Assembly: GCF_021590045.1 (NCBI RefSeq)
Contig: NZ_CP062221.1
Span: 496,001 to 560,000 of the forward strand
Length of the DNA: 64,000 bases
Reading direction: 5' to 3'
DNA from: Cellulomonas palmilytica
GTDB taxonomy: Bacteria; Actinomycetota; Actinomycetes; Actinomycetales; Cellulomonadaceae
Below are positions 36,083-47,351 of this stretch, in pieces. The translations under genes and the position numbers were made by a program. The notes beneath the pieces are model-generated. The model searched no databases. It worked only from the letters and a program-made list of their open reading frames with translations, and was not told where the DNA came from. Within the stretch, counting starts at the first letter, position 1. Each line of letters begins with the position of its first letter.

Positions 36083-36156
36083 GCGGGTGTAGTTCAATGG
36101 TAGAACTTCAGCTTCCCAAGCTGACAGCGCGGGTTCGATTCCCGTCACCCGCTCCA
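36083..36156 (+). tRNA. tRNA-Gly (anticodon CCC)
   Basis: The acceptor arms GCGGGTG and CACCCGC pair fully and CCA is encoded at 36154-36156. The anticodon stem TCAGC/GCTGA encloses loop TTCCCAA with anticodon CCC. The T-arm has GGTTCGATTCC. The D-arm contains AGTTCAATGGTAGAACT, typical of tRNA-Gly. It borders a region of toxin-antitoxin-like and frameshifted genes and could be an integration site, but I found no repeated 3' end in the window. Confidence 0.95.
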
Positions 36157-36311: not shown

Positions 36312-36334
36312 TCACGACTCACTTGGAGCCGATG

Positions 36335-36961
36335 ATGGACGTCTCGAACCCGATCGCCGACGTGGTGCCGTCCGCCCACGGCCCCGTGCTTGCCGTGCTG
36401 GCGTCCACCTCGACACCGCTCACCGGCCGCGCGATCGCCGAGCTCACACGCCCGCGCGTCTCCCAGTCGCGCGCCGCGCGCATCCTCATCGAGCTCACCG
36501 GGTCCGGCCTCGTCGACCGGACCCCGGCAGGAGCCGCGTCACTCTTCTCCTTGAACCGCGAGCACGTCGCCGCATCGGCCGTCGAGGCGCTCACATCCCT
36601 GCGCCAGCGGCTGTGGAGCCGAATCAGCGAGCACGCAGACGGATGGCCCAAGCCCCCGGACGGCGTCGTCGTCTACGGGTCCGCCGCACGAGGCGATGGC
36701 GGCGGCGCCAGCGACATCGACCTCCTCGTCATCCGGCCCGCCGACGTGGACCCCGATGACGCCGACTGGCATGCGGCTGTCACGGACCTCGCCGCGCGCG
36801 TCACCCGCTGGTCTGGAAATCCGTGCGAGATCCTCGACCGCTCCGGTCAGGAGCTTCGGGCCATGGCCGCAGCGGGTGAGCGCCTCCTGAGCGAGATCCG
36901 GCGCGACGGGCGCGCGATCGTCGGGTCGATCTCACTGGTCCCTGCCCCGAAGGCAGCCTGA
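36335..36961 (+). CDS. HTH-nucleotidyltransferase (MNT-type antitoxin candidate)
   Basis: The 208-residue protein starts at ATG 36335, with TTGGAG 6-7 bp upstream (ATG 36332 is the alternative). Residues 15-75 form a winged-helix domain (GPVLAVLASTSTPLTGRAIAEL and RVSQSRAARILIEL). From about residue 107 a minimal nucleotidyltransferase domain follows with the motif VVYGSAARGDGG...SDIDLLVI, which has the GS and DxD metal-binding residues. Such proteins serve as antitoxins to HEPN partners, some by adenylylating the toxin. The downstream gene, one base later, is HEPN-like but frameshifted. Confidence 0.8.
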   Translation: MDVSNPIADVVPSAHGPVLAVLASTSTPLTGRAIAELTRPRVSQSRAARILIELTGSGLVDRTPAGAASLFSLNREHVAASAVEALTSLRQRLWSRISEHADGWPKPPDGVVVYGSAARGDGGGASDIDLLVIRPADVDPDDADWHAAVTDLAARVTRWSGNPCEILDRSGQELRAMAAAGERLLSEIRRDGRAIVGSISLVPAPKAA

Positions 36962-36962
36962 G

Positions 36963-37341
36963 GTGGGCGCCCGGGAGGACTCGCTCGGTCACCTGCGGAA
37001 GGCCCGCGAGTTCCTCGATGCTGCCGGCCTGGAGCTGGACCTGGAGCTCCATACAGCGGCGGCGTCATCGGCGGTGCTAGCCGGGATCAACGCCAAGGAC
37101 GCGATCTGCCTCCAGATCACGGGTCGCACCGGCAAGTCCGAGGACCCACCGCTCCGCCGTGCCGGAGCTCGCCGCTGCCGGGCCCGCGGGCAAGGCACTG
37201 GAGTCAACTTTCCGCCGGCTCCTCGGGCTCAAGACCGCCGCGCAGTACCAAGCCGGGCCGATCAGTCGGACGGATGCCACGAAGGCCGTCGACTGGGCGA
37301 CGCGCATGGTCGACGCCGCGCGGGACGTCACCGGCTCCTGA
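36963..37341 (+). pseudogene. Frameshifted HEPN-domain protein (toxin partner)
   Basis: From GTG 36963 the frame begins like a HEPN protein (LGHLRKAREFLDAAGLELD, AKDAICLQITGRTGKSED). It then changes frame at a CCC run at 37145-37147. Removing one C restores the continuation HRSAVPELAAAGPAGKALES and TKAVDWATRMVDAARDV up to the stop at 37341. The intact product would be about 125 residues, a normal SAV_6107-like HEPN length. It follows the HTH-nucleotidyltransferase gene by one base, as in MNT/HEPN pairs. The lesion may be a true inactivating mutation, a slippery-site variant or a sequencing error. Confidence 0.65.
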
Positions 37342-37428
37342 CCGGCCCTCGGCCCGGTCAGACTCTCGGTCTGCACCGGCCCGTCCTCGTTCTCCGACAC
37401 CCGACGCCAGGTCCCGTACCGTGACCGC

Positions 37429-37764
37429 GTGGACGACGACGAGGCCGACGAGCGGTACGACCGCCTGGTCGCGAACCTCGTCGCCGCTGCGGACCTCCTG
37501 ACCCGCGTCGGTGAGTCGTACTGGGCGGCGTGGATGACTGAAGCGCACCGCCAGATCACCGCGCAGGACGCGCACGGACTCGAGCACCTGCTGCGCGCCT
37601 ACGGCGGCATGGGCAGCTTCACCGAGATCGCCTCCGTCCTGCACCACAGGCACCTGCCTGACGACCTCGACACCTGCCACGCGGAGGCCGAGCTGAGCCG
37701 GCTCGGCTCGGCCCTGCACGACGACGCGGACGCCCTGCTCCGCCGCTTCGAGCACCACCGCTAG
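37429..37764 (+). CDS. Small hypothetical protein (DUF6966-like)
   Basis: The 111-residue cytosolic protein starts at GTG 37429 and is mostly helical. It contains LTRVGESYWAAWMTEAHRQI and LEHLLRAYGGMGSFTEIASV. The GGMGS segment recalls small proteins grouped as DUF6966; this is from memory and not certain. No partner gene is evident. It is convergent with the broken HTH-nucleotidyltransferase gene. Confidence 0.6.
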   Translation: MDDDEADERYDRLVANLVAAADLLTRVGESYWAAWMTEAHRQITAQDAHGLEHLLRAYGGMGSFTEIASVLHHRHLPDDLDTCHAEAELSRLGSALHDDADALLRRFEHHR

Positions 37765-37812
37765 CTCCGCGCCGACGAGGTCGCGGTCGGTCGGGCGCAA
37801 TCGTCGCGCGAC

Positions 37813-38329
37813 CTAGAGACGGACCGCCTCGGCCGAGGCGGAGTCGGCGACGTGCGGGGCGAGGGCGCTCGCGGGTGCGACGTCGACGCGCTCGCTCAGC
37901 AGGGCCGAGACCTCGTCGGCGATCGCCCCCAGTGGGAGCAGGCCCCGGGTGTGGACGTCCAGGTCGACGAGCAGGTCGATGTCGGAGTCCGGGCCGTCCT
38001 CGCCGCGTGCGACGGAGCCGAAGACCCGGACGTTGGAGGCGCCGTGCCGGTGCGCGATGCGCGATGCGCCGCACGCGGTCCCGGTTCGCGCGCAGCTTCG
38101 CCATGCGCGGCGAGCGGACGTCGAGATGACGCGGCGACGACGTCGCTCCGATCTCCAGTCGCTGCCCCATCGCCGCGAGCAGGCGGTCCAGGGTCTCGAC
38201 CGACGGCGAGGCGACCCCCGACTCGTAGCGCGAGATTGCGGGCTGCGACGTCCCGGCCCGTGCCGCGAGCGCGTCCTGGCTCAGCCCGGCCGCCTCCCGG
38301 CTCGTCCGGATCAACGTCGCTGCATCCAC
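37813..38329 (-). pseudogene. XRE-HTH nucleotidyltransferase, frameshifted by a 7-bp tandem duplication
   Basis: GTG 38329 opens a protein with an XRE-type helix-turn-helix (LSQDALAARAGTSQPAISRYE, about residues 16-36). After RDRVRRIAHR the frame breaks. At 38051-38064 the unit TGCGCGA is present twice in tandem. With one unit, the frame continues as HRHGASNVRVFGSVARG and DSDIDLLVDLDVHTRG, a minimal nucleotidyltransferase domain, to a TAG at 37813-37815. The repaired protein would be about 169 residues. The whole is an antitoxin-type HTH-MNT gene. The tandem repeat makes reversible slippage possible. Confidence 0.7.
38051..38064. repeat. 7-bp tandem duplication that breaks the HTH-nucleotidyltransferase gene
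   Basis: TGCGCGATGCGCGA is two exact copies of TGCGCGA followed by a partial third (TGCGCC). Loss of one copy restores a continuous reading frame through the nucleotidyltransferase motif. Confidence 0.75.
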
Positions 38330-38606: not shown

Positions 38607-41600
38607 ATGGCACGCGAGAACCAGGGGATCCGGGTCTCCATGAAGCCCCAGGCGCCGGGGACGGGCCCGACACCGGGCCGCGACCCGAACGAGCCCGGCG
38701 GCACGCGCGACGGAGCCTCGACGGACCCGGGCCGGATCCCCGTGCAGAGCCTCGACCTCGAGGACCTCGGCCTGCAGGTCGACATCGACCTCGAGCAGGT
38801 CAAGTCGGTCCTCGAGGACCGGCTCAAGGCGACCGCGCAGATCTTCTCCACGCTCGACGTGGTGAAGAAGGACCTCGACGTCTTCCTCCCGAAGGTCCCC
38901 GAGCAGCTGCCCGCGGCGGTGTACGGGCGGTTCGTGAACCCGGACGGGTCGCCGGCGGCGCTGGTCGCGGTGACGGCGCTCGCGCCGCAGGGGCCGTCGT
39001 CGTCGCCGGACGGCTCGTCGTACGACGTCAAGCTGCCGTGGTCGAACCCGGAGACGCGCACCGACTCGCGCGGCGCGTTCAAGATCGTGCTGCCGCCGCG
39101 TCCGCTGCCCGACGACGGGCTGCGGCTGCTGGTGCGCGGCGGGAACCGGATCGTGGAGTACGGGCTGCGGCGCTCGGACCTGGTCGCAGGCGCGGGGAAC
39201 GTGGGGCTGCTGCCGCTGGACGAGATCGTCACGCCGCTGCCGCGCAGCGTCGTCTCCCAGCTCGGGGACGTGGTGCTGCCGACGAGCGAGGACGACGTGC
39301 TCGCGGACCCGGGCGAGTTCGCGGAGCCGGTGCCGGCGTTCACGCTCGGGCAGGGCGAGTGCGGGCAGTCGTTCCGCTCGAACGCGGGGGTCGTGGACCG
39401 GTTCCGGTACTCGATGCTGGTGCGGCTGGTCGCGCCGCAGCTGTCGAACCGGCGGCTCGCGTCGCGGTTCGGGCGCGGCGACAGGTTCGCGTCGCTGTCG
39501 GCGAGCACCGTCGGGCTGGGCCGCTACCTGGGTGCGGGCCAGATCGCGGAGGCGATGGGCGAGCTGGGCTCGTGGGAGATCGTCGAGCGGGTGCCGATCG
39601 AGCAGCCGATCGACGTGCAGTCGTTCCTGGACCGCGTGGAGACGGACCCGCGGTCGGTGCCGAAGGCCGCGAGCCTCGGCATGGGCTACATCGTCAAGAT
39701 GCACCAGACGTGGATCCCGCAGGGTCTGTCGCTGGGCGACCTGGTGTACTCGCTGCCGCTCGCGCCGGGTGAGCAGCAGCGCATCGCGATCTCGGAGGAG
39801 ACCGAGACGCTGTCGGTGCGGGACCTGGAGTCCATGACGGCCGACGAGCAGCAGTCGTACAACGAGCGCGCGGACTCCTCGACGAACGCGGTGTTCCAGT
39901 CGGCGTTCGACGAGTCGGCGAGCGGCGGGTCGCGCATGAAGGTCCGCACCGAGGCGGGCAGCTTCGGCGGCGGGCTGGGCATCGGCGCGATGTTCTCCGG
40001 CGTGGTCGCCGGCCTCGGCCTGGCGGGCGGGTACTCGGACTCGACGACGACGGGCTCGTCGTCGTCGTGGCAGACCGCGAGCCGCGACTACGTGTCGAAC
40101 GCGTCGCAGGACTTCCACTCGAGCCTCGCGCGGCAGGCGGCGGCCCGACGACGCTCGTCGCGCACGTCCGTGCGGCTGGCGAGCTCGAGCGAGAGCCGCC
40201 AGGTGGTCACGAAGGTCATCACGAACCACAACCACAACCACGCGCTCACGATGATGTACTGGAGCGCGCTGCGGCACTTCGCGGTGTCCAGCCAGGTCGA
40301 CGACGTGCAGCTCATGGCGTTCGTGCCGCTCGAGCTCGTGCAGTTCCTGCCGACGTTCCAGCCGCGCACGCTGCCGACGGGCGAGTACACGCGCGCGCAG
40401 CTCATGGCGCGGTACGACGCGCTGCTGCGCCACCACGACGTCATCGAGCCGCGCGTGCGGTTCAAGCCGGAGCTGACGCGCGGCCTGAAGGTGCTGCGCT
40501 CGCTCGCGGGCAACCCGACGATGACGGTCCAGGCGTCGTCGGGCAGCGCGGTGGACATCGTCAACCTCACGGTCACGGGCACGTTCCTGCCGTTCGAGGA
40601 CGTGTACGTCACGGCGGTCTCGTCGACGGGCGCACGCGTGGGGCCGGTGAAGATGTCCGCCGCGAGCGCGAGCGTCACGACGGGGCTCCCGACGAAGGCC
40701 GCGCTGCTGCAGCACCTGCGCGACCGCCGCGCGGGCTCGTTCGAGACCCGCACCGCGGCGCTCACGCTGCCCGACCACATCGCGCGCAGCGAGCTGTCGC
40801 GGTTCGAGTTCTCGCGCACGTGGCGCACGTTCAGCTACAAGACCGACCCGCTCGCGGGTGTCGACCTGGGCGCGCTGTCGAACATCTTCGACATCCTGCG
40901 CAGCCTCGACGTGACGATGGCGGCCGACGAGCTCGAGCGTGAGCTGGGCGGTCCGGTCGTGTTCGACCCGACCGCGGTGATCGGCCCGCTCGACGTGATC
41001 GAGGCGTACAACGGCGCGGGAGGCACGGAGCGCATGCCCGTCGTCATGCCCGTCGCGGCGAAGCGTCTGCCGCCCGAGCTGTCGTTCGCGGACGTGCTGC
41101 GCATCGAGGGTCTGCTGCAGCACGTCGTGCAGAACACCGTCGCGTACTCGAAGGCCGTGTGGCAGTCCCTCACGCCCGAGGAGCGCGCCATCATGCTCGA
41201 GCAGTACACGATCGGCGTGCCGACGGGCGGCATCCCGGACGCGTCGCAGCAGGTCCCGCTGCTGAACTGCGTGGCGAACGAGGTCGTCGGGTACTTCGGC
41301 AACGCGGCGCTCATGCCGTTCTTCATCCCGGCGCCGCTGGCCGAGAAGGTCGGCTTCACGTCCCGGGACATCCAGGAGGCGCTGCTCAAGTTCCACCGGC
41401 AGGCGTTCGCGCCGCCGCAGTCGTCGATCACGCTGCCGGCGCGCGGCGTGCTGGGCGAGGCGGTCCTGGGCTCGTGCGCGTCGGCCGAGAAGATCGACCT
41501 CACGCGGTTCTGGAACTGGCAGGACTCGCCCGCCGACGAGGCGGAGAAGACCGCCGACGTGGCGACCGCGTTCGGCTCGGCCAACCAGCTCGTCGGCCCG

Positions 41601-42125
41601 AACGGCGCGCAGGGTCCGGCGTCGCTCGAGTCGAGCCCCATGATCACGATCAACCAGGGCCCGACGGCACTCACGCCGGCCGAGCTGGCGACCGCGCTCA
41701 TCGCGTCGCAGCCGACGACGAACCTGCCGACGGACCTCACGGGCCTCACGCAGCTCGGGGCGCAGATGAAGGTGCAGACCGAGACCACGGCGGACTCCCT
41801 CACCAAGACCATCGCCGAGGCGTCGGGGCTGGCGAAGGCCGCGATGACGGCCGTGACCGGGGCGATCGACGCCAAGAACGGCGGCAAGGACCAGGGCGGC
41901 ACGGGCTCGGGCGGCACGGGCTCAGGCGGCACGGGCTCAGGCGGCACGGGCTCGGGTGGCACAGGCTCGGGCGGCACGGGCTCGGGCGGCACGGGCGGCG
42001 GGTCCGGCGGCTCCGGCTCCGGCGGGTCCGGCAGCGGGTCCGGGGGCTCGGGCGGCAGCGGAGGGTCCGGTGGGTCCGGGGGCTCCGGCAGCCCCGTCGA
42101 CGGCGGCGCGGCCCCCAGCCTCTGA
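38607..42125 (+). CDS. Large unknown protein of the M64-peptidase operon
   Basis: The 1172-residue protein starts at ATG 38607 after GGGGAG; the longer upstream frame is rejected. No signal peptide. Residues about 105-190 look like a carboxypeptidase-regulatory beta-sandwich (VYGRFVNPDGSPAALVAV; TDSRGAFKIVLPP). Residues 450-475 form a Gly-rich hydrophobic patch (GGGLGIGAMFSGVVAGLGLA) followed by Ser/Thr-rich sequence. At 540-548 there is a striking NHNHNHALT motif that could bind metal. A middle region contains PDHIARSELSRFEFSRTWRT and a helical part near 840-900 (SFADVLRIEGLLQHVVQNTV). The last 80 residues are a low-complexity Gly/Ser/Thr tail. I recognise no enzyme. It leads a five-gene operon with a zinc peptidase. 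Confidence 0.75.
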   Translation: MARENQGIRVSMKPQAPGTGPTPGRDPNEPGGTRDGASTDPGRIPVQSLDLEDLGLQVDIDLEQVKSVLEDRLKATAQIFSTLDVVKKDLDVFLPKVPEQLPAAVYGRFVNPDGSPAALVAVTALAPQGPSSSPDGSSYDVKLPWSNPETRTDSRGAFKIVLPPRPLPDDGLRLLVRGGNRIVEYGLRRSDLVAGAGNVGLLPLDEIVTPLPRSVVSQLGDVVLPTSEDDVLADPGEFAEPVPAFTLGQGECGQSFRSNAGVVDRFRYSMLVRLVAPQLSNRRLASRFGRGDRFASLSASTVGLGRYLGAGQIAEAMGELGSWEIVERVPIEQPIDVQSFLDRVETDPRSVPKAASLGMGYIVKMHQTWIPQGLSLGDLVYSLPLAPGEQQRIAISEETETLSVRDLESMTADEQQSYNERADSSTNAVFQSAFDESASGGSRMKVRTEAGSFGGGLGIGAMFSGVVAGLGLAGGYSDSTTTGSSSSWQTASRDYVSNASQDFHSSLARQAAARRRSSRTSVRLASSSESRQVVTKVITNHNHNHALTMMYWSALRHFAVSSQVDDVQLMAFVPLELVQFLPTFQPRTLPTGEYTRAQLMARYDALLRHHDVIEPRVRFKPELTRGLKVLRSLAGNPTMTVQASSGSAVDIVNLTVTGTFLPFEDVYVTAVSSTGARVGPVKMSAASASVTTGLPTKAALLQHLRDRRAGSFETRTAALTLPDHIARSELSRFEFSRTWRTFSYKTDPLAGVDLGALSNIFDILRSLDVTMAADELERELGGPVVFDPTAVIGPLDVIEAYNGAGGTERMPVVMPVAAKRLPPELSFADVLRIEGLLQHVVQNTVAYSKAVWQSLTPEERAIMLEQYTIGVPTGGIPDASQQVPLLNCVANEVVGYFGNAALMPFFIPAPLAEKVGFTSRDIQEALLKFHRQAFAPPQSSITLPARGVLGEAVLGSCASAEKIDLTRFWNWQDSPADEAEKTADVATAFGSANQLVGPNGAQGPASLESSPMITINQGPTALTPAELATALIASQPTTNLPTDLTGLTQLGAQMKVQTETTADSLTKTIAEASGLAKAAMTAVTGAIDAKNGGKDQGGTGSGGTGSGGTGSGGTGSGGTGSGGTGSGGTGGGSGGSGSGGSGSGSGGSGGSGGSGGSGGSGSPVDGGAAPSL
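41895..41999 (+). repeat. 15-bp tandem repeat encoding a GGTGS tail
   Basis: Seven near-identical units of GGCGGCACGGGCTCG encode a repeated Gly-Gly-Thr-Gly-Ser tail. A further Gly/Ser-rich stretch continues to about 42105. Such arrays commonly vary in copy number between strains. Confidence 0.8.
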
Positions 42126-42186
42126 CACGGCACGCGCACGCCTGACCGGCCCGACGACGAACGACGACGAACACGGAGACGAGACG

Positions 42187-43170
42187 ATGTCCGAACCGAC
42201 CACCACCCCCGCGGCGAGCACCGCCGAGGACCGCGCGATCGACGCGCTCACGAGGATCCTCGACTCCGCGATCTCCCCGCAGATGCTCGAGGCGCAGCAG
42301 CTGATCCTGCGTCGCCTGGCGACCGCGGGCGACCTGTTCCCGTCGCGCGTGCCGGCCCCGCTGAACATCACGCAGGTCGGCGGGTACCTCAACCTCATCC
42401 AGGACGACGCGGTGATGCGCGCGCAGGTGCTGGCCTCGACGCTCGGCGTCGCGGGCCCGAACCCGACGCCGGGCTTCGACCCGGTGCTCCCCCCGCTGTA
42501 CCTCACGGCCCGCGTCAACGACCGGCCCGCGGGCGGCGCGCAGGCGGCGATCCCGGTGAGCGTGCAGGTGCGCAGCGACCTGGCGGCCGCGTTCGACGCG
42601 GTGCGGGCGGCGCTGCACGCGCAGGGCGCGACGCTGCCGGTGCTGAGCGCGGTGCGCCCGCTGCCGCCCGCGGGCATCGGGGTGCCGGCGCCCGACGACC
42701 TGCTGCCGTACCTGGGCCGCGTGCTCGAGCTCGTGCCGTCGACCGCGCTGGTCGACCCGGCGACGGACGCGCTCGCGCTCGGGCAGGAGGGCGGTGCGGG
42801 CCCGCAGACGCTGGTGGCGCGCGTGCTCGACCCTGCGGCGCCGGACGCGGGCTCGGTGCCCGAGGCGGCGTGGAGCCTGTGGGACTGCGACGCGACGGCG
42901 TGCACGCAGGTCACGGTCACGGGCAGGTTCGTGCGGCTGGCTCCTGTGCTCGAGGGCGCGGGCTGGTACGCCCCGCCGCCGGGTGCGCCGACGTCCTCGT
43001 CGGACGCGGGTGCCTGGTACCGGTTCACGAACACGACCGGCCTGGTCGCGGGCGTCAGCCGGTTCGGCGACGAGCTCGCGCTGATGTGGTCGGCGGGGCA
43101 GATCGCCGCGTCGAGCGTGCGCGAGAAGGTCGCGGCGGTGTGGGACGGCACGGCGTTCGTGGAGGCGTGA
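42187..43170 (+). CDS. Unknown protein, second gene of the M64 operon
   Basis: The 327-residue protein starts at ATG 42187, 61 bp after the large gene. No signal peptide and no clear membrane helix. The N-terminus is helical (AEDRAIDALTRILDSAISPQ, MLEAQQLILRRLATAGDLFP). A middle Ala/Pro-rich part includes LPPLYLTARVNDRPAGGAQ, and a C-terminal beta-rich part has WSLWDCDATACTQVTVTGRF with two Cys residues and ends WDGTAFVEA. No family is recognised. It sits one base before the next gene, so it is co-translated with it. Function unknown. Confidence 0.7.
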   Translation: MSEPTTTPAASTAEDRAIDALTRILDSAISPQMLEAQQLILRRLATAGDLFPSRVPAPLNITQVGGYLNLIQDDAVMRAQVLASTLGVAGPNPTPGFDPVLPPLYLTARVNDRPAGGAQAAIPVSVQVRSDLAAAFDAVRAALHAQGATLPVLSAVRPLPPAGIGVPAPDDLLPYLGRVLELVPSTALVDPATDALALGQEGGAGPQTLVARVLDPAAPDAGSVPEAAWSLWDCDATACTQVTVTGRFVRLAPVLEGAGWYAPPPGAPTSSSDAGAWYRFTNTTGLVAGVSRFGDELALMWSAGQIAASSVREKVAAVWDGTAFVEA

Positions 43171-43171
43171 C

Positions 43172-43741
43172 ATGAGCGAGGACGCGGGCGGCACGGGGAC
43201 GGGCGGCGGCACGCGCGGCGGTCCGGGCCGCGACGACGAGGAGCAGCGCGACGCGGGGCGTCCGGCGCTGCGCCCGTCCCAGGTGCGCGCCGCTGCGGCG
43301 CGTGCCCAGGAGGCGGCCGCGGCCGGCGGGGGCGACTCGCCCGCGCCGGCCGCCTGGCGCGTCACGTTCTCCTACACCGGCGAGAAGGTCAGCGTGGTCG
43401 CGCAGCAGCACGTCGCGATGCTCGCCCCGCCCGACGACCGCGCGCTCGTCGAGGCGGGCTCGCGCGGCTCGTGGGCGGAGGTGCGCGACGCGGACGGCAC
43501 GGTCCTGTACGCCCAGGTGCTGCACCAGCCGGTCCGCGCGCAGCACGAGGTGCACAACCGGTACGGCGTCGCCCCGAAGCAGGTGACGGCGGACGAGGTG
43601 CGCGGCGCGTTCCAGGTCGTCGTGCCGGACCTGCCGGGCGGCGTGGAGCTCGTGGTGCGCGGCCGGGCGGACGTGGACGACGCGGCGCGCAAGGCCCCGC
43701 GCCAGCTCGTGAAGGTGCGACTCGGACAGGGGCAGGGCTGA
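43172..43741 (+). CDS. Unknown protein, third gene of the M64 operon
   Basis: The 189-residue protein has a disordered Gly/Arg/Ala-rich N-terminal 60 residues. A compact beta-sandwich-like domain follows (WRVTFSYTGEKVSVVAQQHV, WAEVRDADGTVLYAQVLHQP, GAFQVVVPDLPGGVELVVRG). It has no signal peptide and no Cys. The domain may be an adaptor or structural module. Its stop (TGA 43739-43741) shares one base with the peptidase ATG, indicating tight coupling to the peptidase gene. Confidence 0.68.
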   Translation: MSEDAGGTGTGGGTRGGPGRDDEEQRDAGRPALRPSQVRAAAARAQEAAAAGGGDSPAPAAWRVTFSYTGEKVSVVAQQHVAMLAPPDDRALVEAGSRGSWAEVRDADGTVLYAQVLHQPVRAQHEVHNRYGVAPKQVTADEVRGAFQVVVPDLPGGVELVVRGRADVDDAARKAPRQLVKVRLGQGQG

Positions 43742-44889
43742 TGGGCGTCGCCGACGGTGCGGTCGTCTCGACGACGAAGATCGTCGACCACGGCCCCGAC
43801 GCGAGCCGCTGGTGCCTGGTCATCCTCGCGGAGGGCTACCGGGCGGCCGAGCTGCCGAAGTTCCGCACGGACGCCGAGGCGTTCGTCGCGCGGTTGTTCG
43901 CGACACCGCCGTTCACGGAGATGTGGTGCGCGATCAACGTGTACCGGGTCGACGTGTCGTCGACCGACTCGGGCGCGGACGAGCCCGTGGCGTGCGCCGA
44001 CGAGCCCGCGCCCGGCACCGGGTCGGGCGCGACGCCGCGCACGTACTTCGACGCGACGTACTGCAACAACGGCATGCGCCGGCTGCTGTACGGCGACGAG
44101 GCGCTCGCGCTGGTCACCGCGAGCACCGCGGTGCCGGAGGTCGACGCGACGGTCGTGATCGTCAACAACCCGGTCTACGGCGGCGCGGGCGGCTCGACGG
44201 CGTGGTTCTCCACCGCGCCCGACGCGGCGGAGATCGGCATCCACGAGCTCGGGCACTCCGCGTTCCGCCTCGCCGACGAGTACGGCGGCGGCACGACCGG
44301 CCCGTGGCCCGGCGGCGAGCCCGTCGAGCCGAACGTCACCACGGACACGGCCCGCGCGACGACGAAGTGGCGCGACCTGATCGCCGCGACCACACCGCTG
44401 CCCACGCAGACCCGCGCGCCGCGCCCGTGCATCGGCCCGGACACCGAGGCCGCGAGCCCGGTCGCCGCGGACGTCGTCGGGCTGTTCGAGGGCGGCTCGA
44501 TCTTCAACTGCGGCATCTACCACCCCATGCACAAGTGCAAGATGCGGCTGCTGAGCGAGCCGTTCTGCGTGGTGTGCCGGCGCGCGATCGCCGCGGTGCT
44601 GCAGCCGCACCTGCCCGCGTTCAGCGGCCCGCACACGGGCCGGCAGTTCACGGGGCCGGTCGCGCCGCGACAGACGGTCACGTGGTTCACGTACGACTGG
44701 CCGGCGTGCTGGCACACGGTCTGGACGGTCGTGCCGACCTCACCCGTGACGCCCGTGGGCGGGGTGCGATGGGAGGTGCGCGTGCAGCGCACGTCGCGCG
44801 AGCGGCTGCAGTACTGGGTCGCGGTCACGAACGAGACGGACCAGCCCGTCACGGTCGACGGTCGCTACGAGGTGGTCGCGACGGTCTGA
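43741..44889 (+). CDS. M64-family (IgA peptidase-like) zinc metallopeptidase
   Basis: The 382-residue protein has the zinc motif HELGHSAFRLADEYGG starting at His168, with His172 as second ligand and Asp179 as likely third. The N-terminal part is typical of M64 (WCLVILAEGYRAAELPKF, YCNNGMRRLLYGDEA). A Cys-rich segment CGIYHPMHKCKMR and FCVVCRRA follows at about 258-282. No signal peptide is present, unlike secreted M64 enzymes, so it is either intracellular or released by an unusual route. Residues about 300-382 form an extra C-terminal beta domain that is duplicated as the next gene. The substrate is unknown; the operon partners are natural candidates. Confidence 0.82.
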   Translation: MGVADGAVVSTTKIVDHGPDASRWCLVILAEGYRAAELPKFRTDAEAFVARLFATPPFTEMWCAINVYRVDVSSTDSGADEPVACADEPAPGTGSGATPRTYFDATYCNNGMRRLLYGDEALALVTASTAVPEVDATVVIVNNPVYGGAGGSTAWFSTAPDAAEIGIHELGHSAFRLADEYGGGTTGPWPGGEPVEPNVTTDTARATTKWRDLIAATTPLPTQTRAPRPCIGPDTEAASPVAADVVGLFEGGSIFNCGIYHPMHKCKMRLLSEPFCVVCRRAIAAVLQPHLPAFSGPHTGRQFTGPVAPRQTVTWFTYDWPACWHTVWTVVPTSPVTPVGGVRWEVRVQRTSRERLQYWVAVTNETDQPVTVDGRYEVVATV

Positions 44890-44913
44890 CCGGACGCGCG
44901 GATAGGGGATGTC

Positions 44914-45168
44914 ATGCAGGTCGGCACGCAGTTCGCCGGGCCGGTGCCCGCGGGCGCCAGCAAGAAGTGGTTCACGCACTCGTGGCCCGTCGGGGAGCAC
45001 GTGGTGTGGACGGTGGTCCCGACGACGATCGGCGCCACCGGTGCGCAGGTCGCGTGGGACGTGCAGGTGCAGATGGCAGGCGCGGGCCTGCTGACGTACT
45101 GGATCACGGTACGCAACCTGTCCGCGGCCGAGGTGCAGGTCCAGGGCCGCTACGCGGTCCTGACGTGA
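44914..45168 (+). CDS. Standalone copy of the M64 peptidase C-terminal domain
   Basis: The 84-residue protein starts at ATG 44914 after GGGGATG, 24 bp after the peptidase stop. It aligns along its whole length with the last 80 residues of the peptidase: QFAGPVPAGASKKWFTHSWP against QFTGPVAPRQTVTWFTYDWP, then VVWTVVPT against TVWTVVPT, and GRYAVLT against GRYEVVAT. It is a small beta domain with no signal peptide. A role as a competitor, inhibitor or shared assembly module of the peptidase is an inference. Confidence 0.75.
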   Translation: MQVGTQFAGPVPAGASKKWFTHSWPVGEHVVWTVVPTTIGATGAQVAWDVQVQMAGAGLLTYWITVRNLSAAEVQVQGRYAVLT

Positions 45169-45247: not shown

Positions 45248-45279
45248 AGGTGATTTACTTGCGCTGGATAAAGTCACCT
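45248..45279. promoter_or_regulatory. Inverted repeat upstream of the AAA-type ATPase gene
   Basis: AGGTGATTTA (45248-45257) and TAAAGTCACCT (45269-45279) form an inverted repeat with a single extra base, in a locally A/T-rich stretch. It ends 18 bp before the ATG at 45298. It may contain the promoter and bind a regulator. Confidence 0.5.
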
Positions 45280-45297
45280 CAACTTCCAAAGGCGCCC

Positions 45298-46521
45298 ATG
45301 GACCCCGTGCTGAACCCGTACACGCCGAACGCGGGCGCCCGGCCCGACGTCGTCGTCGGCCGCGACGACCAGCTCGCCGCATTCGACGTGCTGCTGAAGC
45401 GCATCGCCCGCGGCCGCACCGAGCAGTCGATGATCTTTACCGGGCTGCGAGGCGTCGGCAAGACCGTGCTGCTGGGACAGTTCCGGGAGGTGGCACTCAC
45501 GCAGGACTGGAGCGTGATCGAGTACGAGGTCGTGAAGCACGACGACTCGGCGTTCCGCATGGACATCGCCGCGCGTCTTCGGATGGCGCTGCTCGAGCTG
45601 GAGCCACGGACGCGGTGGTCCGACCGGTTCAAGAAGGCCGCGGCGGCTCTGGCGTCGTTCACGGTGTCCGTCGACGCCGAGGGGACCTGGCAGGCCGGCC
45701 TGAACGTCGACGCGATCGAAGGGCTCGCCGACCACGGTGACCTGTCGATGGACCTGACTGACGTTCTGCTCGCGGTCGGTGAGGCAGCGCAGGACAAGCG
45801 GAGGGGCGTGGTGCTGCTGCTCGACGAGATCCAGTTCCTGAGCAAGGTCCAGCTGGAGTCCCTGATCGTGGCGCTGCACAAGGTGGTCCAGCGCGCGGTG
45901 CCCATCACGCTCGTCGGCGCGGGACTGCCGCAGATCGCCGAGCTCGCCGGAGACGCGAAGTCCTACGCCGAGCGGTTGCTCAAGTTCCCGTCGATCGGGA
46001 ACCTCGAGGAGCAGGACGCCAAGCGCGCCCTGAACGAGCCGGCGATCGCCGAAGGCGTCGAGTACACCGAAGACGCACTCGACCTCGCGTTCGAGTTGAC
46101 CGGCGGATACCCGTACTTCATCCAGGAGCTTGGGCACGCCGTCTGGGGAGCCGCGAGCACGGCTCCGATCACGCGCGCGGACGTCCAGGACGCGTGTGAG
46201 CTCTACGAGGCGAAGCTCGATGCGTCCTTCTTCAGGGTGCGCCTGGACCGTGCGACCGAGCTGCAGAGCGCATACCTCCGCGCGATGGCTCAGCTTGGCC
46301 CGGAACCGCAGAAGGCCGGCGAGGTGGCGTCGGTCCTCGGGCGTGAGTCCACACAGCTCGGACCGACCCGCGCCGAGCTCATCGACATGGGACTGCTGTA
46401 CACGCCGCAGCACGGATACGCCGCGTTCACGGTTCCGCACTTCGACAAGTTCATGCTCCGAGCAATGCCCAACCTCGTGGTCCCGCCCTTGAAGCGCCGG
46501 TCCAAGGGTGTCGGCTCGTAG
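45298..46521 (+). CDS. AAA-family ATPase (COG1672-like, AAA_16)
   Basis: The 407-residue protein has Walker A GLRGVGKTV at about residues 46-54 and Walker B VVLLLDEIQFL near 172-182. Sensor-like TLVGAGLPQIAELAGDAKSY and a C-terminal winged-helix-like part (GEVASVLGRESTQLGPTRAEL) complete an ORC/AAA_16-type layout. Family members are widespread in actinobacteria and archaea as standalone genes of unknown role. The start is ATG 45298, because the frame upstream covers the inverted repeat. The base composition (more A/T, GAT/AAG codons) differs slightly from its neighbours, which hints at later acquisition. Confidence 0.8.
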   Translation: MDPVLNPYTPNAGARPDVVVGRDDQLAAFDVLLKRIARGRTEQSMIFTGLRGVGKTVLLGQFREVALTQDWSVIEYEVVKHDDSAFRMDIAARLRMALLELEPRTRWSDRFKKAAAALASFTVSVDAEGTWQAGLNVDAIEGLADHGDLSMDLTDVLLAVGEAAQDKRRGVVLLLDEIQFLSKVQLESLIVALHKVVQRAVPITLVGAGLPQIAELAGDAKSYAERLLKFPSIGNLEEQDAKRALNEPAIAEGVEYTEDALDLAFELTGGYPYFIQELGHAVWGAASTAPITRADVQDACELYEAKLDASFFRVRLDRATELQSAYLRAMAQLGPEPQKAGEVASVLGRESTQLGPTRAELIDMGLLYTPQHGYAAFTVPHFDKFMLRAMPNLVVPPLKRRSKGVGS

Positions 46522-46595
46522 CGCGGGGTATCTCACCCGGCGCCGGGCGGCACCTTCCGCGTGGGGTGGCAGCGAGGCCACCGCGGGAGGCAGCG

Positions 46596-47351
46596 ATGAC
46601 GACGACGTCCGTGGTGCGCACGAGCGGCCTCGTCGTGCACCTGCTCGACGGCCCGTACGTCACGCGTGACGGCGCGTACGTCGACCTGCCGGACGGGACG
46701 CGCACGCTCGTCGTGCTGCTCGCACGCCGCGGCACGCAGGTGGACCGGGGGCGCGCGGCGCACGAGCTGTGGCCGGACTGCGGCAGCGGGCGCGCGCACG
46801 GGAACCTGCGCTCCGCGCTGTGGCGGCTCAACCGGTGCGCGCCGGGGCTCGTGGACGCGTGCCGGCGCACGCTGCGGCTCGGCCGGGACGTCGCGGTCGA
46901 CGTCGCGGACGTCGTGGCGTGGTCGCAGCGCGTCGCGGACGGCTCGGCGGGGGTCGACGAGGTGCTCGACCGGGTCCCGCACGTGGTGCGGCCGACCGTC
47001 GAGCTGCTGCCCGGCTGGGACGACGACTCCGTGCTGCTGGACCGCGCGTGGCTGCGCCAGCAGGTGCTGCACGCGTTCGAGCGCGCGGCGGCACGATGGC
47101 TGGACGACGAGCCCGCGGCAGCGGCCCAGGTCGCGGCGGCGCTCGTGCACGCCGAGCCGCTGCGGGAGTCCGCGCAGCGGCTGCTGCTCGAGGCGCTGCT
47201 GGCCGAGGGCAACCGCGTCGAGGCGCACCGGGCGCTGGACGAGCACCGGCGGCTGCTGCGCCGCGAGCTCGGAGTGGACGTCTCCCCCGAGCTGGACGCG
47301 CTGGTCAGGGCCGGTGCGCGGGCCGGTGCGAGGGCCGTCGCCGCGCCCTGA
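46596..47351 (+). CDS. SARP-family regulator (OmpR-type HTH plus BTAD)
   Basis: The 251-residue protein starts at ATG 46596, preceded by GGGAGG. The N-terminal 95 residues match a Trans_reg_C winged helix of Streptomyces antibiotic regulatory proteins (VDLPDGTRTLVVLLARRG, VDRGRAAHELWPD, LRSALWRLNR). The rest is the bacterial transcriptional activation domain with helical repeats (LLEALLAEGNRVEAHRALDE, LLRRELGVDVSPELDAL). Such regulators typically activate biosynthetic clusters. Heptamer repeats of the SARP-box type lie 56 bp after its stop, in front of the exporter gene. Confidence 0.85.
   Translation: MTTTSVVRTSGLVVHLLDGPYVTRDGAYVDLPDGTRTLVVLLARRGTQVDRGRAAHELWPDCGSGRAHGNLRSALWRLNRCAPGLVDACRRTLRLGRDVAVDVADVVAWSQRVADGSAGVDEVLDRVPHVVRPTVELLPGWDDDSVLLDRAWLRQQVLHAFERAAARWLDDEPAAAAQVAAALVHAEPLRESAQRLLLEALLAEGNRVEAHRALDEHRRLLRRELGVDVSPELDALVRAGARAGARAVAAP

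Follow-up and report, generated by a model that had tools for sequence, protein, structure and literature searches.

The P1–P2 gene pair of Cellulomonas palmilytica and its relatives, a putative carrier for hydrolases made without export signals

Positions 496,001 to 560,000 of contig NZ_CP062221.1 of Cellulomonas palmilytica, a stretch of 64,000 nucleotides referred to here as the window, contain five plus-strand open reading frames between 38607 and 45168 (window coordinates, used throughout). Genes 1 to 5 follow one another with gaps of 61, 1, −1, and 24 bases, the negative value being a one-base overlap of an ATG with a TGA between genes 3 and 4, and third-codon-position GC, determined for genes 1, 3, and 5, is 0.98, 0.96, and 0.95, respectively. 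The products are P1 (1172 residues; 38607–42125), P2 (327 residues; 42187–43170), P3 (189 residues; 43172–43741), an M64 peptidase (382 residues; 43741–44889), and P5 (84 residues; 44914–45168). An earlier note made from the sequence alone had described this co-directional arrangement accurately, and had read it as an operon built around the peptidase that might serve conflict, self-assembly, or non-classical release. The source genome is a single contig of 3.83 Mb with one P1 gene and one M64 gene, the latter matched in two stretches. A promoter and terminator scan of the window cassette found nothing.

At E ≤ 1, Pfam gives no row for genes 1, 2, and 5, NCBIfam and PHROGs give nothing for any of the five genes, and PADLOC returns a best row of E 0.11 for P1 and no row for genes 2–5; for P2, none of the four libraries holds a significant match. 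RodZ_C was considered for P3 and rejected at 19.4 bits, under the cut-off of 23.9. The P1–P2 pair is without a family name in the libraries searched, as the note had said of the whole set, and no description of the pair was found in the literature covered, which was that of openly licensed papers.

A protein search with 7990 scored candidates yielded 344 homologues of P1 at E ≤ 0.001. The motif, patch, and tail that the note had marked in this protein are all present. NHNHNHALT occupies residues 540–548 (40224–40250), where N540, N542, A546, L547, and T548 are invariant among 23 aligned sequences, and N540, N542, and T548 are invariant across 112 sequences. The Gly-rich hydrophobic patch (residues 441–492; 39927–40082) is disordered in the model (pLDDT below 50) and contains the start, at residue 455, of the most hydrophobic 19-mer of the protein; that it looks membrane-active, as the note proposed, is plausible. 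In the AlphaFold2 model, residues ~358–574 (39678–40328) are predicted to form very long beta strands, including 358–385 and 545–574, around helices and the patch. The Gly/Ser-rich tail (41886–42125) is the site at which some relatives carry a fused enzyme.

A carboxypeptidase-regulatory-like domain, also proposed in the note, is weakly supported: the window protein itself has no Pfam match, CarboxypepD_reg is found in five of 23 relatives with a best E of 0.0081, and matches of the model to such prealbumin-like beta-sandwiches have Foldseek E 0.012 or worse. Its placement at residues ~100–205 (38904–39221) and the kinship of the folds are our own assignment, as the Foldseek table carries no model ranges. 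Residues 649–818 (40551–41060) of the predicted model match a PLAT/C2-like fold; the Pfam PLAT family is absent from the 15 families matched by the 23 relatives at E ≤ 1. Profile searches against PDB gave nothing useful, and the PDB sequence matches of P1 at E ≤ 0.002 were set aside because they lie in the Gly/Ser tail. Against BFVD, the model has a single Foldseek match at E ≤ 0.001, an uncharacterized Yasminevirus protein (E 1.8e-7, 510 columns).

The P1 family includes a gut-type clade (Bacteroidota, Fibrobacterota, part of Bacillota, and a few others) whose P1 proteins have an N-terminal extension; DUF4332 occurs in the five gut-type proteins scanned, and a Big_2 domain in one P1 relative. 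A profile of remote P1 relatives matches four gut-type P1 genomes (E 2e-34 to 5e-37), which indicates that the P1 core is one superfamily. By eye, the tails of the remote relatives are variable as well. Proteins of ~450–540 residues that hold just the long-strand part of P1 were also seen (L149, L150, and L103, in Bacteroidota genomes and in G151).

P2 has 527 homologues at E ≤ 0.001 (7996 scored candidates). The portion retained among aligned relatives is its N-terminal helical domain (residues ~13–90; 42223–42456), in which R43, R54, N60, G66, Y67, N69, L86, and G87 are invariant across 74 rows. Gut-type P2 proteins, of about 80–120 residues and once 182, correspond to this domain standing alone. 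Residues ~100–289 (42484–43053) resemble hedgehog and VanX (M15) folds weakly. The zinc ligands of the M15/hedgehog families are His, Asp, and His; P2 conserves no such ligands, and no conserved His was found in this part among 66 long rows. Foldseek found no PDB match to P2 at E ≤ 0.001, and an IPT/TIG domain is present in three of 74 P2 relatives.

When 84,980 species genomes were scanned, 215 stretches proved to encode a P1 relative. The best 80, representing 77 loci, were kept; with the window these form a set of 78 loci, in which some contigs end early. Judging by record titles, they include members of Actinomycetota, Pseudomonadota, Nitrospirota, Gemmatimonadota, Planctomycetota, Verrucomicrobiota, Bacillota, Bacteroidota, Fibrobacterota, and two archaeal metagenome-assembled genomes, the phyla being assigned from names, and labels of metagenome-assembled genomes can be wrong. 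P2 or its N-terminal domain of ~90 residues lies 3′ of P1 in 67 of the 78 loci, and in 67 of the 68 with room for it. Ten contigs end at P1, and locus L064 ends 455 bp past it. The two genes are separated by less than 200 bp in 62 of the 78 loci and by more in five, namely L021, where the P1 frame is broken, and L047, L053, L062, and L073, where one or two genes intervene. Judged by gene order, P1 and P2 are the constant core in the main family, and the enzyme beside them changes.

The gene 4 product belongs to M64 (PF09471, 145.3 bits against a cut-off of 26, E 2.9e-42; PDB matches 4df9 and 3p1v), and the HELGH site given in the note stands. The catalytic motif of the family is HEXXHXXXGXXD (PMC12402451); at this position gene 4 reads HELGHSAFRLAD, with HELGH and the Asp present and R in place of G, while the relative in L038 has the Gly. 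P5 is a free copy of the peptidase's own C-terminal domain, as the note had recognized (phmmer 8.5e-16, 43% identity). A close M64 relative is found in only five of the 78 P1 loci (the window, L002, L003, L006, and L038), and genome G099 (L096) supplies a sixth locus with both genes. P3 lies 5′ of M64 in all six, and P5 is present in five, missing from L038. In a phylum sample, 11 of 396 genomes have an M64-type match, which within the fetched stretches adjoins P1 only in the window's genome. Homologues of P1 thus occur mostly without the peptidase, an outcome that the note itself had named as counting against its reading, and its view of an operon built around M64 does not hold. On the sequence comparisons, the M64 gene with P3 and P5 is better described as one occupant of an exchangeable enzyme slot beside P1–P2.

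Two proteins elsewhere carry a P5-type C-terminal domain. One, of 888 residues and propeller-like by eye, is encoded in L125 (6023–8953, 3980–4726) together with a free P5 copy and a BTAD-type regulator, with no P1 within the stretch, so that the pattern of a tagged protein with a free P5-type copy recurs in the window and in L125. The other (L126 5295–7319) is 674 residues long and, by eye, contains a QEQGH motif; its genome also has a remote P1, on another contig.

Several other hydrolases occupy the slot. Neprosin genes precede P1 by 19 bp in L036, 25 bp in L033, and 45 bp in L070, identified by Pfam in L033 and L036 and by clustering in L070, and a fourth, annotated as neprosin family, lies 18 bp upstream of P1 on a Novosphingobium plasmid typed as conjugative. 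Adjacent enzymes further include a C70 peptidase in L037, an S8 subtilase 145 bp upstream in L012, and an Amidase_6 protein in L016, with which L031 is grouped by clustering alone. Between P1 and P2 themselves lie two Amidase_2 genes in L047, a single one in L062, and, in L053, an NlpC/P60-like gene. Enzymes are also fused to P1, as caspase C14 in L065 (E 3.9e-6), Amidase_2 in L074 (E 6.5e-12), and C70 in P0246 (E 2e-6). The fused Amidase_2 tail of L074 is homologous to the free gene of L047 (E 4e-33), and the tail of L077 to the free gene of L053 (E 2e-11), so that Amidase_2 and NlpC-like enzymes each take both forms, joined to P1 in one protein or encoded separately between it and P2. Such an enzyme is present in 19 of the 78 loci if L031 and L073 are counted and in 17 otherwise; this is a floor, because the scan covered chosen neighbors and tails.

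These enzymes were placed on a P1 tree of 81 rows, a quick IQ-TREE run whose supports are SH-aLRT values only. Despite their origin in Nitrospirota, Actinomycetota, and Pseudomonadota, the four neprosin loci form one P1 clade (support 99), M64 occurs in the window's clade and in a distant one (L038), and L077 with its NlpC-like tail, L073 with two other intervening genes, and P0246 with fused C70 make up a further clade (support 99). The genes flanking the P1 loci vary. The association of P1–P2 with swappable hydrolases is well supported by these comparisons of gene content and order.

Some candidate occupants were discarded. A GDSL lipase (L018) and a rhomboid protein (L059) have hydrophobic N-terminal segments (2.89 and 2.56 on the scale given below). 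NlpC/CHAP-like tails in L077 and L101 and a nuclease-like tail in L122 were picked out by eye, and Pfam gave them no name; likewise, IPT/TIG-like tails (L016, L018, L031, and L032) and OmpA-like tails (L029 and L039) were seen by eye only, and OmpA in L042 falls below the Pfam threshold. No meaningful Pfam name was obtained for a 540-residue protein of L053 or for genes of L073, L050, L067, and L077.

The enzyme families in the slot attack peptidoglycan or proteins and normally do so outside the cytosol. Export signals were sought as the best 12-mer hydropathy mean within the first 60 residues, a measure that is not a signal-peptide predictor. The five window proteins score 0.39–1.51, against 3.0 and 1.85 for two exported-looking controls from the window, the weaker of which is not far above the highest of the five. 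By this check, the five window proteins have no N-terminal hydrophobic segment, in agreement with the note, and neither do the adjacently encoded enzymes that were examined (M64, neprosin, C70, S8, and Amidase_6); best 12-mers across both groups range from −0.02 to 1.58. The M64 enzymes ThomasA (an IgAse) and BF3526 carry signal peptides (PMC12402451). They share the Pfam family and HExxH site of the window enzyme, which differs in having no signal-like segment; a signal peptide is usual in the family and not defining. A known trafficking domain was not found by Pfam and NCBIfam in P1, in five gut-type relatives, in L016, or in the other relatives scanned.

Because the enzymes are of extracytosolic type, lack leaders, and are tied to P1–P2, the simplest reading is that the pair acts as a modular carrier of leaderless hydrolases, bringing them out of the cell or into another one, and on balance this is slightly more likely than not. 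Delivery itself is what we infer from these associations. P1 and P2 would assemble in the cytosol, where they would bind or tether the enzyme, and would then carry it over an envelope, be it once the producer's content has been set free or along some export route. The PLAT/C2-like domain, the long beta strands, and the Gly-rich patch may contact a membrane, and the delivered enzymes would act outside on peptidoglycan or proteins, most likely those of competitors or prey. For the M64 set, one may guess that P3 is a chaperone or inhibitor and that P5 is a free copy of a loading domain. Among the note's readings, the class that still fits best is conflict or non-classical release; its linked, leaderless, and unnamed genes were confirmed, and its centering on M64 was not. 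A more specific version is unlikely. In it, P1–P2 would form an unrecognized delivery particle with no kinship to contractile, type VI, or other known injectors. Its leaderless cargo, proteases or wall hydrolases, would be loaded either in trans or in cis and inserted by a beta-strand apparatus with a PLAT anchor, whether the bacteria have one membrane or two.

A number of observations weigh against the carrier. About 59–61 of the 78 loci show no recognized hydrolase among the chosen neighbors and tails scanned, and just three of the 25 gut-type P1 homologues listed have a fused C14 or C70 protease. Some of the links are less firm than others: the NlpC/P60-like gene of L053 scores 20.0 bits under a Pfam cut-off of 23, the related tail of L077 is called by homology only, the C70 proteins of L037 and P0246 share a Pfam family with no BLAST match at E < 0.01, and the M64 gene of L038 is convergent with P1, on the opposite strand. 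P2 is absent beside the remote P1 relatives L100, L101, L103, L117–L119, and L122–L124, and the M15/hedgehog-like resemblance of its C-terminal part is weak. For P1, none of the 120 homologues listed has a precomputed Pfam domain, and Foldseek found no PDB match at E ≤ 0.001 and no whole-chain structural match. The phage sheath family PF04984 was found in G000, G079, and G188 and not in G066, G099, and G151; with three of six sampled full-length-P1 genomes lacking a sheath, no secretion system is tied to the pair. The sole immunity candidate, among neighbors scanned in part, is an Imm26 match of 20.8 bits (cut-off 23.3) beside the remote relative L101.

Polymorphic toxin systems resemble P1–P2 in that a conserved front part is followed by C-terminal enzyme domains that vary, with enzyme cassettes also standing alone; caspase, NlpC/P60, and papain-like peptidases are listed among their toxin or releasing domains (Zhang et al., 2012, PMC3482391). 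The variable C-terminal enzyme is found as C14, Amidase_2, or C70 on a minority of P1 proteins. Unlike these systems, P1–P2 shows no known trafficking domain and, among the neighbors scanned, hardly any immunity genes; its enzyme is in many cases encoded apart, and the main family has a constant partner in P2. The pair is thus read as working in the manner of a polymorphic-effector system, but, with no recognized trafficking domain and so far no immunity genes, it is not classed as a member.

Extracellular contractile injection systems deliver leaderless cargo, which is a point of likeness, and the P1–P2 pair of C. humilata adjoins contractile-tail-like genes recognized by eye (L098 3–5108), convergent with P1–P2 and with the sheath gene ~12 kb from P1. 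These tail-like genes have no relatives in the other loci compared. A role for P1–P2 as part of a contractile injection system was therefore rejected, as among the loci compared such neighbors were seen only in C. humilata and half of the six full-length-P1 genomes have no sheath.

Bacterial gasdermin operons place a membrane-active protein beside exchangeable proteases, and P1, which looks membrane-active and adjoins swappable proteases, invites the comparison. On a gasdermin-like model, the linked protease would cut P1, and the Gly-rich patch and PLAT-like domain would enter the producer's own membrane, causing defensive death. Four unrelated protease families (M64, neprosin, C70, and S8) beside P1 and a fused caspase fit such a role, as do the patch and PLAT-like fold, the patchy spread with a tRNA-bordered stretch and some plasmids, and the protease-activated effectors reported in bacterial immunity (PMC12799240). 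However, no gasdermin appears in the sequence or fold listings, and wall-cutting Amidase_2 and NlpC-like enzymes share the slot, Amidase_2 also in fusion with P1, which a cleavage role leaves unexplained. That several slot enzymes are peptidoglycan amidases or NlpC-like, some of them fused to P1, also speaks against P1 being mainly a peptidase substrate; the note had suggested that it may be a substrate or an assembly partner. Furthermore, most loci show no protease, PADLOC gives no significant match, the patch is strongly reduced in some relatives such as P0117, and the pore-former rows for the P1 model (Tpp80Aa1, Cry78Aa, and membrane attack complex) have a Foldseek probability of at most 0.25. 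Protease-activated death is accordingly rather unlikely.

The wall enzymes that trouble a gasdermin-like model would suit self-lysis, in which P1 would breach the membrane of its producer from within, leaving the enzyme to break the wall or content, giving altruistic death or release of common goods. Amidase_2 and NlpC-like genes do lie between P1 and P2, next to a membrane-active-looking P1, and holin/endolysin logic fits wall enzymes paired with a membrane-active protein. Yet M64 and neprosin are not wall enzymes, and P1 is, to our knowledge, far larger than any holin. No P1 was found in 50,697 phage records, and none of 51 viral-contig matches to two peptide patterns was confirmed as a P1 relative, results on which a phage origin was also rejected. 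Self-lysis is thus quite improbable. The long beta strands, the Gly/Ser tail, and the Ig-like additions (IPT/TIG and Big_2) would suit an extracellular, spore, or biofilm assembly in which P1–P2 forms a structural layer that the hydrolases mature or remodel; P1 and P2 have no N-terminal hydrophobic segment, however, the swapped enzymes have unrelated substrates, and caspase, C70, and amidase are fused to P1 itself, so that such a layer is very doubtful. Finally, an ordinary island with unrelated neighbors and a chance peptidase link, as might be suspected from the differing flanking genes and from M64 accompanying P1 in so few loci, is very unlikely given the constancy of P2 in the main family, the neprosin–P1–P2 linkage kept across the three-phyla clade, and the enzymes that either lie between the two core genes or form part of the P1 protein.

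The carrier reading matters because P1–P2 stands repeatedly, across many phyla, beside extracellular-type hydrolases that lack export signals. If the pair delivers enzymes, bacteria would have a further, new way of releasing them or of antagonizing one another; if proteases activate it instead, it would represent a new type of death module. In either case, leaderless M64, neprosin, C70, and amidase genes that otherwise seem orphans gain named partners, and the loci are a ready set of natural enzyme swaps for testing.

P1 is sparsely distributed. In a sample of 25 genera from the window's family, P1 matches occur in nine of 200 genomes, six of them full-length including the window's own, and in the phylum sample in three of 396, where the two besides the window's are remote. 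Among plasmids, P1 is found in 25 records, two of which cover at least 80% of it. The same-genus genome G121 (L102) is syntenic with the window on both flanks, at 27.2–29.6 kb, at the tRNA-Gly at 36.0 kb (36083–36156, plus strand, ARAGORN), and at 59.6–64.0 kb. It keeps only three scraps of the cassette, in order (39600–39705, 39870–39938, and 44688–44889; L102 4428–6968, beside tRNA-Gly), and therefore the cassette lies in a tRNA-bordered variable stretch and was lost by deletion in G121.

Directly 3′ of P5 follows an AAA_16 ATPase gene (45250–46521), to which nothing in the other 77 loci is related at E ≤ 0.001. Past it lies a plus-strand gene for a BTAD-type regulator (46566–47351; PF03704, E 4.6e-13), whose link to the cassette is uncertain: relatives (E < 1e-24) accompany the cassette in L002, L003/L095, and L006 and also adjoin the P5-type locus L125, and none at 1e-10 was found at the M64 loci L096 and L038. 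On the other side, at 36323–38329, a nucleotidyltransferase gene (PF01909) adjoins tRNA-Gly and is followed by small open reading frames and a minus-strand XRE-like one (by eye), possibly of toxin–antitoxin type. At the remote locus L101 (5097–6354), a GIY-YIG-like frame and the Imm26-like gene adjoin P1, both slightly under the Pfam cut-off. Elsewhere, a cluster including a sigma-54 activator lies a few genes upstream of P1 in L012, L013, L017, and L039 (Pfam checked for L013), and a response-regulator-type gene lies upstream of P1 in L040, L056, and L120 (Ruegeria); these neighbors may point to inducible expression.

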